Source of the DNA: Magnetococcales bacterium
GTDB lineage: Bacteria; Pseudomonadota; Magnetococcia; Magnetococcales; JADFWU01
Direction of reading: 5' to 3'
Assembly: GCA_015234045.1 (NCBI GenBank)
Contig: JADFWU010000018.1
Location: 1 to 13,305, forward strand
DNA: 13,305 nucleotides
Of the stretch, positions 5,732 to 13,164 are shown one piece after another (within the stretch, counting starts at the first letter, position 1; the number at the start of each line of letters is the position of its first letter). The notes beneath the pieces were generated by a model that saw nothing but the letters and a program-made list of their open reading frames with translations, ran no database searches and had not been told where the DNA came from. The position numbers were made by a program, and so were the translations under genes.

Positions 5732-5762
5732 TGATAAACTTACGAAAAACAGACAACATTAC

Positions 5763-5783
5763 GCCGCCGCATATCGCGGCGGC
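5763..5783 (-). promoter_or_regulatory. GC-rich hairpin in the hisS leader
   Basis: GCCGCCGC (5763-5770) and GCGGCGGC (5776-5783) form a perfect 8-bp stem with a 5-nt loop. On the hisS strand it lies about 30 nt before the start codon and is followed by a U-rich stretch containing five consecutive T residues about 11 nt after the stem. It could attenuate transcription or slow translation of hisS. It could also be one member of a dispersed palindromic repeat family. No His-codon leader peptide was found. Confidence 0.4.
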
Positions 5784-5894
5784 AATACTTTGTCCAAGTT
5801 GATGGGATAAATTGGAGAGTCAAGGATAACGCATTAGTGCAGGTTGTGGCCAAGGTTAGGACCACGAGGAAGGATGAAATGTGCAGAAAATAAG

Positions 5895-5943
5895 TAAAAA
5901 AAACCTGGGGCGGCATTCCCCCAAACACCATAGAGCCCCAGGT
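5895..5943 (-). terminator. Rho-independent terminator (minus strand)
   Basis: On the minus strand ACCTGGGGC (from 5943) pairs perfectly with GCCCCAGGT (ending at 5903) across a 23-nt loop and runs straight into eight T residues. This is a textbook intrinsic terminator. No annotated gene ends here: the next gene upstream on this strand already has its own terminator at 6131-6166. It therefore most likely ends a separate small transcript. Confidence 0.8.
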
Positions 5944-6008
5944 CAGGAAGAGTCATATGCGTTAATCAAATCAAAGTTCCCCTTCGATCTGCGAACTCTT
6001 CTCAGGCG
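5895..6008 (-). ncRNA. Candidate small RNA of about 114 nt
   Basis: A promoter-like pair on the minus strand (TTGAAT at 6044-6039, 18-nt spacer, TATAGT at 6020-6015) would start transcription near 6008. A perfect intrinsic terminator ends it near 5895. Inside, GAAGAGT pairs with ACTCTTC. Between these arms ATCGAAG pairs with CTTTGAT (one G-U) over a GGGAA loop. The third hairpin is the terminator. It matches no family I recognise (6S, SRP, tmRNA, RNase P and T-box were considered). A rival reading is a 41-codon frame, 6068-5943, whose stop touches the terminator stem. It has no ribosome site and overlaps the promoter, so the RNA reading is preferred. Confidence 0.45.
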
Positions 6009-6014
6009 GGACAG

Positions 6015-6044
6015 ACTATACTGCCATTTCATGAGATGATTCAA
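6015..6044 (-). promoter_or_regulatory. Sigma-70-like promoter of the small RNA
   Basis: On the minus strand TTGAAT (6044-6039) and TATAGT (6020-6015) are separated by 18 nt. Each hexamer differs from the consensus at only one or two positions. The position upstream of an orphan terminator supports it. Confidence 0.5.
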
Positions 6045-6055
6045 CCCATTTTTTT

Positions 6056-6080
6056 CAATGTTGACCATTTTACAACATTG
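6056..6080. promoter_or_regulatory. Inverted repeat, possible activator site
   Basis: CAATGTTG (6056-6063) and CAACATTG (6073-6080) are perfect 8-bp arms with a 9-nt spacer. The repeat lies 12 to 36 nt upstream of the -35 box of the small-RNA promoter, where an activating dimer would bind. No T-run follows on either strand. The regulator is unknown. Confidence 0.4.
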
Positions 6081-6181: not shown

Positions 6182-6496
6182 TTACAAAATCCGCAGACGA
6201 TCCAGCGGCGCGCCTTCATCAGGCACAAGATGGGTGTCAAAGATCTCAGCCACATCAGCGGGCTTCACTTTGCCATACCAAACACCTTCAGGATAAACCA
6301 CAACCGTTGGACCTTGCATACAAGGCCCCATGCAGCCAGCAGCGGTAACAAGAATAGACTCGAACAATCCGCGCTTCTCAAGTTCGCCATAGAAGGCATC
6401 AATAACCTGATGCGAACCAAGCGCTTTACAGGAACCTTTAGGATGCCCCTCAGGACGTTGATTCATACAAACAAAAACATGATGCTTGGGCTTCAT
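6182..6496 (-). CDS. (2Fe-2S) ferredoxin, thioredoxin-like fold
   Basis: A 104-residue electron carrier of the Shethna/thioredoxin-like [2Fe-2S] ferredoxin family. The four cluster ligands are Cys10 (HHVFVCMN), Cys23 (PKGSCKALG), and Cys55 and Cys59 (AAGCMGPCMQGP), with the usual long first spacing and short second spacing. The segment PTVVVYPEGVWYG (63-75) and the C-terminal acidic helix VADVAEIF-type region are also typical. It has an excellent AAGGAGAG ribosome site 8 nt before the ATG. It is a single-gene unit: a bidirectional terminator follows, and another terminator-like hairpin lies upstream. The redox partner is not known. Nearby dsr genes make a link to sulfur metabolism conceivable, but they lie on the other strand and are separately controlled. 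Confidence 0.93.
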   Translation of the reverse strand: MKPKHHVFVCMNQRPEGHPKGSCKALGSHQVIDAFYGELEKRGLFESILVTAAGCMGPCMQGPTVVVYPEGVWYGKVKPADVAEIFDTHLVPDEGAPLDRLRIL

Positions 6497-6589
6497 GACA
6501 CCGCTCTCCTTTGGTCTTGAATGCGACTAGTTTAGATCGTTGAGATACCGGGTGATGACCGGATCATGGATAAAGTAGACAAACTTTTA

Positions 6590-6614
6590 TATAAAAAAAC
6601 CTGCCGCCCGACAG
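6590..6614 (-). terminator. Terminator-like hairpin on the minus strand
   Basis: Read on the minus strand, CTGTC (from 6614) pairs with GGCAG (ending at 6601) including one G-U, with a GGGC loop, followed by seven T residues. On the plus strand the stem has a C-A mismatch, so the minus orientation is favoured. It would end a transcript arising between it and about 6950, where no confident gene is seen. It would also separate that transcript from the ferredoxin gene. Confidence 0.4.
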
Positions 6615-6920
6615 ATTTTGGCGTTACATTAAGCCTGTTGGAATTGGGGTTAGTCAACGCATAGTGAAAAAATCAAGACGCTGATTACAATATTCGGCGA
6701 ATGTTTTCTGTGCTGTCGATGTACCCGCGCGTGATACAGAGACAGGGATCTGACGTATCTTTAACAACCATTCGTTGACGTGAAAATTATCGCTGTTTAT
6801 TGACCTGTTTTGCAATAAATAATGTGTGTACAAACAGACTGTTATTACTGCGAAGCGCGTACCACTGCTAAGACTCACACTTAATAATGATTGACAGATG
6901 CACACATACAGGGCATTAAC

Positions 6921-6980
6921 ATGACGGCATAAGCGTAACCTGTATAATGCAATTTTACGTTTGGTTACAGTATGGTTACA
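6921..6980 (+). promoter_or_regulatory. Candidate dsrC promoter with GGTTACA repeats
   Basis: ATGACG (6921-6926) and a perfect TATAAT (6943-6948) are separated by 16 nt. Two exact GGTTACA copies (6963-6969 and 6974-6980) are spaced 11 nt, one helical turn. An inverted GTAACC (6935-6940) lies just before the -10 box. Tandem half-sites of this period are typical of OmpR/PhoB-type response regulators. Lying over and after the start site, they would most likely repress. If used, this promoter gives a leader of about 280 nt before dsrC. Confidence 0.4.
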
Positions 6981-7045
6981 TAAAAATCACACCGGGAAAG
7001 TGATTAAGCGTCTTTTGGTGTCTTGCCCTGGTTTGGAAAATCATG

Positions 7046-7076
7046 ATATCCTAATTTTCGAAGTTTAGGATATACT
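7046..7076 (+). promoter_or_regulatory. Dyad operator overlapping a possible -10 box
   Basis: ATATCCTAA (7046-7054) and TTAGGATAT (7065-7073) are perfect 9-bp arms with a 10-nt spacer. The right arm overlaps TATACT (7071-7076), a good -10 hexamer, although no clear -35 box is visible. This geometry suits a dimeric regulator that controls dsrC, or an activator replacing the -35 contact. The long A/T-ended palindrome recalls Rrf2-family sites, but the regulator cannot be named. Confidence 0.45.
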
Positions 7077-7164
7077 AATATTCCGCCCCGGTCATGGGCA
7101 AAGCCTGAGCGCCATCCCCCGCGCCGGATAACACGTTTTGCCTGTTACAAGCAGGCGACCCAAT

Positions 7165-7187
7165 GGATTCAGAATCCGATCGTTTTT
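7165..7187 (+). promoter_or_regulatory. Hairpin and U-run in the dsrC leader
   Basis: GGATTC (7165-7170) and GAATCC (7172-7177) form a tight stem followed 5 nt later by TTTTT (7183-7187). Just before it GCCTG (7140-7144) can pair with CAGGC (7152-7156). The pair could act as a weak attenuator about 50 nt before the dsrC start. No known riboswitch pattern is recognised. Confidence 0.25.
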
Positions 7188-7237
7188 AATACATTGTTCT
7201 GCGATCTGTTGATACAAACCTCTGAGGAGAAGCAAAC

Positions 7238-7573
7238 ATGGGAAGCTTTGAACTAAACGGCACCACTTACGAGACTGACGAAGACGGCTACCTGGTAGAC
7301 CTGAACGAATGGAACGAAGATGTGGCCGCTTATTTGGCCAAAGCCGAAAGCATTGAGATGACTGAGTCTCATTGGGAAGTTGTCCAATTTCTGCGTGAGT
7401 ACTATGAAGAGTACAAGATCGCTCCAATGATCCGCATCTTGACCAAAGCCATTGGCAAGAAACTCGGTAAAGAAAAAGGCAACACCAAGTATCTTTATGA
7501 CCTCTATCCTGGTGGACCTGCCAAGCAAGCCTGTAAAGTTGCTGGCCTGCCCAAGCCCACCGGCTGCGTCTAA
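7238..7573 (+). CDS. dsrC: DsrC, sulfur-carrier protein of dissimilatory sulfur metabolism
   Basis: A 111-residue cytoplasmic protein of the DsrC/TusE family. The ending CKVAGLPKPTGCV places Cys99 and the penultimate Cys110 on the flexible C-terminal arm. Having both cysteines marks a true DsrC that forms a disulfide or trisulfide, rather than single-Cys TusE used only in tRNA thiolation. The family core is visible in GYLVDLNEWNEDVA (17-30), SHWEVVQFLREYY (43-55) and KYLYDLYPGGPAKQ (84-97). A strong TGAGGAGA ribosome site lies 8 nt before the ATG. The long regulated upstream region, a strong terminator downstream at 7682-7723 and separation from dsrM suggest a high-level monocistronic message with limited read-through into dsrM. 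Its partner in the membrane is DsrMK, encoded next. Confidence 0.95.
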   Translation: MGSFELNGTTYETDEDGYLVDLNEWNEDVAAYLAKAESIEMTESHWEVVQFLREYYEEYKIAPMIRILTKAIGKKLGKEKGNTKYLYDLYPGGPAKQACKVAGLPKPTGCV

Positions 7574-7600
7574 TTCCTTTTTGGAATTGCGCACACCGAT

Positions 7601-7674
7601 AGGTCTCACTGCCGCATGCTGACCAACCGCCCCTCTTAAGCGGACGGTCGGGAAAGCAACGGTAGTTAAGGTCT
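7601..7674 (+). other. Structured RNA element after dsrC
   Basis: Three nested helices can form in the dsrC 3' region: ACTGCCG/CGGTAGT (7608-7614 with 7660-7666, one G-U), CTGACC/GGTCGG (7619-7624 with 7646-7651, one G-U) and CCGC/GCGG (7627-7630 with 7640-7643). A direct repeat AGGTCT (7601-7606 and 7669-7674) brackets them. A terminator follows 8 nt later. The arrangement suggests a riboswitch-like or protein-bound control element for dsrMK, or the body of a 3'-derived small RNA. It matches no class I recognise. Confidence 0.4.
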
Positions 7675-7681
7675 GAAACAC

Positions 7682-7723
7682 CGGCTGCCCTCCGAAGCAT
7701 TTTCGGAGGTCAGCCGTTTTTTT
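7682..7723 (+). terminator. Strong rho-independent terminator between dsrC and dsrM
   Basis: CGGCTG (7682-7687) pairs with CAGCCG (7711-7716) and CCTCCGAA (7689-7696) with TTCGGAGG (7702-7709), with one mismatch and a 5-nt loop. Seven T residues follow at once. It should end most dsrC transcripts, so dsrM and dsrK need read-through, anti-termination or their own promoter. No clear promoter is visible in 7724-7794. Confidence 0.88.
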
Positions 7724-7794
7724 CACATGGTCGCCCCGCATCAACTGTTGGATGCAGACTTGACCAACCCATTCTTTTATTTGGGGGAAGCTGG

Positions 7795-8496
7795 ATGCTG
7801 TCGATCCTCGCCTATCTGGCCCTCTTGATCTTCGTCGTAGGGTTTACCTGGCGGATCATGGTGTACTTCAAGACACCAGCTCCGTTAAAAATTCCCACCA
7901 CCCCGGCTCCAATCACGACATCGGGTGTGGTCGTACGAATGTTCACAGAAGTGGCTTTCTTCCACAGCTTGTTTAAAGGTAACAAATGGACTTGGCTTGG
8001 CGGATACGTCTTTCACCTGGCCCTGGCACTGGTTACTCTCCGGCACCTCCGCTATTTCATCAATCCACTGCCTGACTTTTTCGCCCATCTTCAGATTTTC
8101 GGCATCATTGCCGGTATCGTCATGGTTGGGGCTTTGGGTTTTCTACTTGTTCGCCGCTATTGGGTGGACCGGGTCCGGCATATCTCTTCACCGGCTGACT
8201 ATCTGATGCTTCTGCTTTTGATCGGCATTGGTGTGACCGGCTTGTTGATGAAGTTTGTCTATCGGCCTGACATCATTTCCATCAAGACCGCCATGATTAA
8301 CTGGATCACCTTCCAGGGCTTTACCGCTCCCGGAGACACGCTGTTCTTGGTCCACTTTGGCATGGTGCTGATTTTGATGGTGATCTTCCCGTTCTCCAAG
8401 CTGATGCATATGGGCGGTATCTTCTTCAGCCCAACACGCAACCAGCGGGACAACCCCCGGGAAATCAAGCATGTCAATCCCTGGTCAAAATACTAA
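7795..8496 (+). CDS. dsrM: DsrM, NarI-like cytochrome b membrane subunit
   Basis: A 233-residue integral membrane protein with about five helices (roughly 3-23, 69-86, 101-119, 134-153 and 183-200). It carries two b hemes and exchanges electrons with the quinone pool. His74 and His84 lie 10 apart in helix 2, and His187 and His205 lie 18 apart at helix 5. These are the same spacings as the heme ligands His56/His66 and His187/His205 of E. coli NarI. The ending SKLMHMGGIFFSPTRN and HVNPW is typical of DsrM and closely recalls the sulfur-oxidiser protein. The short length also fits that type rather than the longer DsrM of sulfate reducers (from memory). A GGGGGA ribosome site precedes the ATG. 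It sits between a terminator and a 183-nt structured spacer, an unusual isolation from dsrC and dsrK. Confidence 0.9.
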   Translation: MLSILAYLALLIFVVGFTWRIMVYFKTPAPLKIPTTPAPITTSGVVVRMFTEVAFFHSLFKGNKWTWLGGYVFHLALALVTLRHLRYFINPLPDFFAHLQIFGIIAGIVMVGALGFLLVRRYWVDRVRHISSPADYLMLLLLIGIGVTGLLMKFVYRPDIISIKTAMINWITFQGFTAPGDTLFLVHFGMVLILMVIFPFSKLMHMGGIFFSPTRNQRDNPREIKHVNPWSKY

Positions 8497-8679
8497 CGAC
8501 CAGTTAAACGCTTTGTGGACACAGGATGATGATCATCCTGTGTCCGCCGCGTCTATCCTTTGGGTAGGTGCGATTTAGAACGATAAATCTCGTGGACGGG
8601 GTTGACTCCCTGCCACGCTCAGTGTGTGAAAGTCCTATTGATACTTTCGCAGTGAGATTAGATTTCAAGGAGCCTTTCT
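8497..8679 (+). other. Hairpin-dense spacer between dsrM and dsrK
   Basis: Five successive stems fit in 183 nt. GGACACAGGATGA pairs with its exact complement (8517-8529 and 8533-8545, 3-nt loop). CTATCC pairs with GGGTAG (8553-8558 and 8562-8567). GATTTA pairs with TAAATC (8572-8577 and 8584-8589). CGTGG pairs with CCACG, with GGG/CCC inside (8591-8595 and 8613-8617). GAAAGT pairs with ACTTTC (8628-8633 and 8643-8648). None ends in a T-run. The spacer may set message stability or the DsrM:DsrK ratio. Confidence 0.55.
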
Positions 8680-10182
8680 GTGGCTAATGATACCGTAGTT
8701 CCTGAAATCACGAAGGACATTGAAACACCGCGTCTTGAGGTGGGTACAATGTCCGGCATGGAGCCTTTTCCTGCCAAGCCGATTCATATGGAGCCTCTGG
8801 ATTTTCCTCCTGAGCGACTACCGGACTGGGAAGAAAAAGGCGTAGCAAAGCTGGGTGATTTACTCAAGAAGTATCGCTCATTGCAAGTCTACATGGACAT
8901 CTGCGTCAAGTGCGGGTCGTGTACTGATAAGTGTCACTACTATCTCGGCACAAAAGATCCCAACAACATGCCGGTGCAGCGTGCAGAACTGCTTCGTCAG
9001 GTCTACCGTCGTTACTATACTGTAGCTGGCAAAATCGCTCCTGGTGTGGTTCGAGCTAAAGAGCTTGATGAAGAGGTCCTGGATGACTGGATGACCTACT
9101 TCCATCAGTGTTCGCAGTGTCGGCGCTGCTCGGTGTTCTGCCCTTATGGCATTGACACCGCAGAAATCACCATGGCGGCACGTGAGTTGATGGACGGTAT
9201 CGGTGTGGGTCACAAGTACTCAGCCGAGATCATCGCCAAAGTCCACGTTGTAGGTAACAACCTTGGCATTCCTCAGCCTGCTCTTGAAGGCACCCTTCAG
9301 TTTATGGAGGAAGAGATTCTTGAGCTGACCGGCCATGAGGTAAAACTGCCTTTGGATCAGCCTAACGCTGATGTGCTTTTGATCGCACCTTCTGCTGACT
9401 TTTTCAGTGCGCCACATATTGAATCATTGATGGGCTATGCCAAAGTATTCCATCAAGCTGGCATCAGCTATACCATCAGTTCTTACGCTTCTGAAGCGGC
9501 CAACTTCGGCATGTTTATCGGATCGTTCGATCAGATGCAGAAGATTGCCAAGCGCGTAGCGGACCAAGCCCGTGATTTGAATGTCAAACGGATTGTGGTT
9601 GGCGAATGCGGTCATGCCTGGCGTGTGGCTTACAGCTTCTGGAACACTTTGAACGGTCCGTTTGATTTTCTTGATCCCAACTATCCGGTTCCCCAACATA
9701 TCTGCGAGTTCACACATGATCTCGTTAAACGGGGCGCTTTGGTGTTGGACAAGGAAGCCAACGATCACCGCACAGTCACGTTCCACGACTCCTGTAACGT
9801 TGCGCGTGCTTCACGCATGGGTTCAAATCCTGGCGGTCAGTTCAGCATTCCGCGTGATTTGATTCGTGCCACATGCAACAACTTCATTGATATGGATGAA
9901 GATACCATCAATGAGAAGACATTCTGCTGCGGTGGTGGCGGCGGTCTACTTACCGATGAGTTGATGGACTTGCGTGTCAAAGGCGCTCAACCGCGCGTTA
10001 CTGCTCTGAAACGGGTGATGGAAGATCATGATGTCAACTTCTTGGCTTTGATCTGCGCCATCTGTAAAGCCCAATTCAGCAAAATCCTGCCCATGTACGG
10101 TATCCCCATGGATACTGTTGGCGGTGTTCACCAGTTGGTGAGCGATGCCATTCAATTGGGTGTTAAAAAGGGCATTGTCTAA
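8680..10182 (+). CDS. dsrK: DsrK, HdrD-like iron-sulfur protein
   Basis: A 500-residue cytoplasmic Fe-S subunit that works with DsrM to exchange electrons with the DsrC disulfide or trisulfide. Two [4Fe-4S] ferredoxin motifs are present: Cys75, 78, 81 and 85 ([11 protein letters not shown]) and Cys144, 147, 150 and 154 ([11 protein letters not shown]). The C-terminal half has the heterodisulfide-reductase CCG domain: GECGHAW (308-314), HDSCN (369-373), [17 protein letters not shown] (416-432) and ICAICKAQF (458-466). These provide the cysteines for the noncubane catalytic cluster. CCGGGGGLL and CAICK are characteristic of DsrK. The start is GTG, with AAGGAG 7 nt before it. The next gene, rph, starts 7 nt after the stop. 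DsrJ, DsrO and DsrP, the periplasmic partners in full DsrMKJOP complexes, are absent here. Confidence 0.94.
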
Positions 10183-13021: not shown

Positions 13022-13086
13022 TTCTAAAACTGGTTGGGTTGTAAGGGAGGCTGTGCCGCCCTTACCGGGTGTGGGCAGAGCCCACA
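13022..13086. repeat. 65-bp palindromic tandem repeat, copy 1
   Basis: The first of two identical 65-bp units that begin TTCTAAAACTGG. Each unit holds two hairpins: GTAAGGG with CCCTTAC enclosing GGC/GCC, and TGTGGGC with GCCCACA around an AGA loop. The unit starts 6 nt upstream of the speB start codon. The pattern resembles the dispersed extragenic palindromic elements of many proteobacteria. Confidence 0.92.
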
Positions 13087-13151
13087 TTCTAAAACTGGTT
13101 GGGTTGTAAGGGAGGCTGTGCCGCCCTTACCGGGTGTGGGCAGAGCCCACA
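13087..13151. repeat. 65-bp palindromic tandem repeat, copy 2
   Basis: Exact second copy of the 65-bp unit, directly abutting the first, with the same two hairpins. A third copy fails after two bases. Identity between copies indicates recent duplication or active homogenisation. Confidence 0.92.
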
Positions 13152-13164
13152 TTAAACTAAATCA

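Follow-up and report, generated by a model that had tools for sequence, protein, structure and literature searches.

What does a strong transcription terminator serve when the gene upstream of it is already terminated? The question is raised by a minus-strand gap that separates a [2Fe-2S] ferredoxin gene from hisS, within a 13,305-nt stretch of a Magnetococcales genome that we refer to as the window. The gap holds a dyad, a promoter-like site, a segment with predicted structure and, at its end, an intrinsic terminator (Table 1). Our best explanation, which we offer tentatively, is a stand-alone small RNA gene whose product, about 106-114 nt long, would act as a base-pairing regulator. The first-pass annotation had described a complete unit; this overstates the case, since the start at 6008 is deduced from the promoter-like site and transcription itself is likewise deduced.

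Table 1. Coordinates of the features in and around the ferredoxin-hisS gap
Feature	Position	Strand	Remark
Ferredoxin gene ([2Fe-2S])	6496-6182	minus	
Ferredoxin gene's own terminator	6167-6130	minus	
Dyad TCAATGTTG-N9-CAACATTGA	6081-6055		putative operator; direct sequence
Sigma-70-like promoter TTGAAT-18-TATAGT	6044-6015	minus	candidate
Inferred transcript, about 106-114 nt	6008-5895	minus	start inferred from promoter
5' domain of inferred RNA: 8-bp stem around 10-bp hairpin	6008-5945	minus	predicted fold
Unpaired 12-mer AUUAACGCAUAU of the 5' domain	5966-5955	minus	predicted fold
Intrinsic terminator: stem of 9-10 bp enclosing a 7-bp helix, followed by eight T	5944-5895	minus	
ATGCGTTA in hisS upstream region	5834-5827	minus	perfect complement of UAACGCAU (5964-5957)
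hisS, downstream gene, same strand	5731-4418	minus	TIGR00442 above cut-off

Terminator, promoter-like site and dyad

The 9-bp terminator stem reported earlier (ACCTGGGGC/GCCCCAGGT, followed by T8) is present in the sequence, and folding places an additional 7-bp helix within its loop. The element as a whole folds at -24.4 kcal/mol (z -3.5). As the genome background we used about 400 kb of stretches together with the window, 413 kb in total, and counted as strong any terminator with a hairpin of -15 kcal/mol or better and seven of eight T. Counted on both strands, about 59 kb between genes held 18 strong terminators and about 354 kb of genes held 6, so the one in the gap is very unlikely to be there by chance. 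It is also among the most stable in this background. The ferredoxin gene, as had been claimed, possesses its own terminator, a strong one about 190 nt upstream of the orphan, and a terminator far above chance that follows a separately terminated gene speaks for a small RNA gene. Orphan terminators are not unique to this gap, since half of the strong ones between genes have no gene end of the same strand directly before them, as judged by a crude gene calling with a simple hexamer model.

The -35/-10 pair with an 18-nt spacer was likewise found as described. It matches the consensus at 9 of 12 positions and is the best promoter-like pair in the gap, lying just upstream of the putative RNA at a suitable distance, a placement that favors a small RNA gene. 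It had been called good, but its score is only modestly above chance: local shuffles equal it in 3% of cases and upstream regions of the genome in 13%, which leaves 6044-6015 a weak promoter candidate. A score so modestly above chance counts against the small RNA reading.

The inverted repeat is also present, although its arms measure 9 bp and not the 8 bp first reported, and it is centered at about -60 relative to the putative start. Dyads of 9 bp are fairly common between genes in the 413-kb background. A genome-wide search for a second copy returned none that was perfect or had one mismatch, and a repeated operator was rejected on that basis; matches with two mismatches do exist. Beyond this dyad, to which no role is assigned, nothing supports the description of the small RNA as regulated. 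A separate dyad, ATATCCTAA-N10-TTAGGATAT, lies at 7046-7073 upstream of a dsrC-like gene (7238-7573) and is a possible operator.

Predicted fold and coding potential

The sequence between promoter-like site and T-run had been described as multi-stem, and folding of the 114 nt bears this out, giving a two-domain structure of -43.5 kcal/mol (z -3.61) that beats 200 of 200 shuffles, with the largest contribution coming from the terminator. The 5' domain alone is predicted to fold at -18.6 kcal/mol (z -2.46), a value reached by 4 of 200 shuffles. Both predictions are consistent with a small RNA gene.

The same stretch is overlapped by a 41-codon frame (6068-5943), which the first-pass annotation took to be the main rival explanation. 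A small protein gene ending at the terminator would account for the way the frame stops just before the terminator stem, which is read directly from the sequence. Its in-frame hexamer score, however, is -5.5; genuine coding windows of 42 codons in this genome average 12.4 (sd 5.7, 5th percentile 2.7), and all five overlapping frames tested fall under the 5th percentile. Neither a Pfam search nor a plasmid search with the frame gave a match, and we saw no evident ribosome-binding site ahead of it. Because the frame encloses the promoter candidate, its start codon would be missing from a transcript that begins at 6008. We regard such a protein gene as very improbable; the frame scores as non-coding under the hexamer model, and the place of main rival passes to a leader of hisS. 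That the overlapping frames carry no coding signal favors a small RNA gene, as does the presence of Hfq in the genome.

hisS as the downstream neighbor

It had been stated that nothing annotated needs the orphan terminator. This overlooks hisS, which lies on the same strand 171 nt downstream and for which the terminator could act as an attenuator. In this explanation, the main rival to a small RNA gene and a less likely one, transcription starting near 6008 would produce the 5' leader of hisS, and a shortage of charged tRNA-His, or of the synthetase, would let transcription pass the terminator. A survey of 302 genomes treated as putative attenuators those terminators that share the strand of the downstream gene, lie no more than 300 nt from it and are closer to it than to the gene upstream (PMC2965389). 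The same survey highlights hisS as an attenuated family, with attenuators that alternate between the T-box and the leader-peptide type (PMC2965389). With 171 nt between it and the hisS start downstream and 240 nt between it and the ferredoxin gene upstream, the orphan terminator falls within the survey's orientation, distance-ratio and 300-nt filters, and it resembles the known hisS attenuators in lying upstream on the hisS strand. Its attenuator-like distance from hisS weighs against the small RNA reading.

Two further observations are in keeping with a leader. Between the terminator and hisS, the best promoter-like site scores no better than chance (33% of shuffles do as well), although about 41% of this genome's upstream regions likewise offer no better promoter score. 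In addition, 8 nt of the exposed loop match the hisS upstream region perfectly. Complementarity as good as this occurs in 1.9% of shuffled leaders and at 4 gene starts out of 294, hisS included. The hisS match was found post hoc and is suggestive, a lead only.

In other respects the candidate differs from the known hisS attenuators, as it has no T-box match in Rfam, no histidine-rich frame ahead of the terminator (6008-5903) and no recognizable antiterminator. When the growing transcript was folded from 6008, in a test confined to folds independent of ligand or protein, no strong competitor of the terminator appeared, and even the alternative obtained with a start at 6014 is predicted to fall short of the terminator fold by about 10 kcal/mol. 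The predicted folding from 6008 thereby favors a small RNA gene. The terminator is also unusually stable for an attenuator, at -24.4 kcal/mol versus survey averages of -16.5 (5') and -20.2 (3') that were obtained by different methods (PMC2965389). The nearest hisS relative begins about 50 nt past its neighbor with no terminator-like site upstream, and 27 of the 29 order hisS genes examined have no such site either. Taken with the points in its favor, these differences leave an attenuated hisS leader doubtful, if still the foremost alternative.

We also examined hisS itself. It scores 323 bits against TIGR00442, compared with about 458-515 bits for the principal full-length copies in the other order genomes, and it is the sole hisS found in its genome, which is 93% complete. 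The 47 other order genomes gave no match to it at E 1e-60 or better. Its nearest relatives are found in a metagenome bin of Terriglobia (62%) and in actinobacteria (about 50-54%), followed by candidate-phylum bacteria. A foreign-type sole hisS with a low TIGR00442 score and distant nearest relatives points to horizontal replacement, and the native gene was likely lost in this way. It is conceivable, if rather improbable, that a lineage-specific RNA beside this acquired sole hisS controls it, either by a new kind of attenuation in cis or by pairing in trans between UAACGCAU (5964-5957) and AUGCGUUA (5834-5827). An RNA that regulates hisS would be the more important, as an example of how new control arises over an essential enzyme after its replacement.

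Shortly before the hisS start, at 5744-5787, lies a long GC-rich hairpin, GCCGCCGC-GATAT-GCGGCGGC; no second GCCGCC/GGCGGC hairpin occurs in the 413-kb background.

Search for relatives and the small RNA reading

The comparison set comprised 47 further genomes of the order, none of them from the same family, and some 400 from the phylum. At the gathering score, Rfam placed no family on the candidate, T-box included, and at E up to 10 it gave sub-threshold matches only, nearly all of which fell on the ferredoxin terminator. No tRNA or tmRNA was found at the candidate. A blastn search with the region, run against its own genome, 60 relatives, all 48 order genomes, plasmids and phages, returned nothing convincing besides itself; the single phage match spans about 40 bases at E 0.02. 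Two exact patterns sought in viral contigs were not found there. A covariance model built from this one sequence detected no relative in the 47 other order genomes and no significant match in the roughly 400 phylum genomes. Two weak matches to the model (E 0.02 and 0.05 per genome) were rejected: neither has the terminator T-run, and given the number of genomes searched, two such matches are expected by chance. Because no relative can be aligned with the candidate, there is no sign of selection on the RNA, and the lack of any sequence or structure relative across these genomes argues against a small RNA gene.

The same result bears on a different view of the terminator, as a second, fail-safe terminator of the ferredoxin gene or a relic of hisS insertion, with the promoter match arising by chance and no discrete RNA being made. 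The weak promoter match and the absence of conserved sequence in the gap both accord with it, as do the status of hisS as a newcomer to the order and the variation between relatives in the region downstream of the ferredoxin gene. Yet the ferredoxin gene's terminator is already strong and stands about 190 nt upstream, and the 5' domain by itself folds better than shuffles. We judge this view unlikely.

A small RNA of no recognized class, as first proposed, thus remains the single best reading, with no Rfam family on the candidate, once the word regulated is dropped from the proposal. The putative transcript is plausibly a lineage-specific small RNA. RNA polymerase would start near 6008 from the promoter at 6044-6015, perhaps under the control of a protein bound at the dyad, and would stop at the terminator (5942-5895), releasing a stable two-domain RNA. 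Such an RNA would most likely pair with its targets through the exposed 12-mer AUUAACGCAUAU, possibly with the help of Hfq, as hfq is encoded in the genome.

One published way to recognize small RNAs is by an orphan terminator paired with a promoter of the same orientation at a distance of 40-500 bp (PMC2573895), and in a Sinorhizobium meliloti screen, 14 of 18 initial candidate regions were detected (PMC2573895). The candidate resembles these sRNAPredict-type RNAs in its promoter-like site, its length of about 100 nt, its intrinsic terminator, and its intergenic and non-coding character (PMC2573895). Many of those RNAs are conserved among sister species and gave signals on northern blots or microarrays, whereas the present candidate has no relatives and is known from its sequence alone. 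In kind it is best read as an ordinary object, a species-specific small RNA.

We also considered an RNA that titrates CsrA, as the CsrB and RsmY types do. CsrA is encoded in the genome, and one GGA lies in a hairpin loop of the candidate. RNAs of this type carry many GGA motifs, whereas the candidate has two in 114 nt, about the number expected by chance, and the idea was rejected.

A full-text search of one literature library returned no paper devoted to small RNAs in this group, which probably consists of magnetotactic cocci. If transcribed, the candidate would add one more species-specific bacterial small RNA, from such a group.

The remaining observations concern the neighborhood. Across 6182-10182, the ferredoxin gene adjoins genes for dsrC-like, NarI/DsrM-like and 4Fe-4S/CCG-domain (HdrD/DsrK-like) proteins; the adjacency of ferredoxin and dsrC-like genes is kept across most of the order, and the genes that come after ferredoxin vary. 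Just outside the window, at locus L131 (own contig C27, 13803-14057), the dyad GGAAAGGGACACGTCCCTTTCC occurs three times, about 115 bases apart. Within the window, at 13022-13153, just past an arginase-family gene, two copies of a perfect 65-bp repeat stand in tandem.
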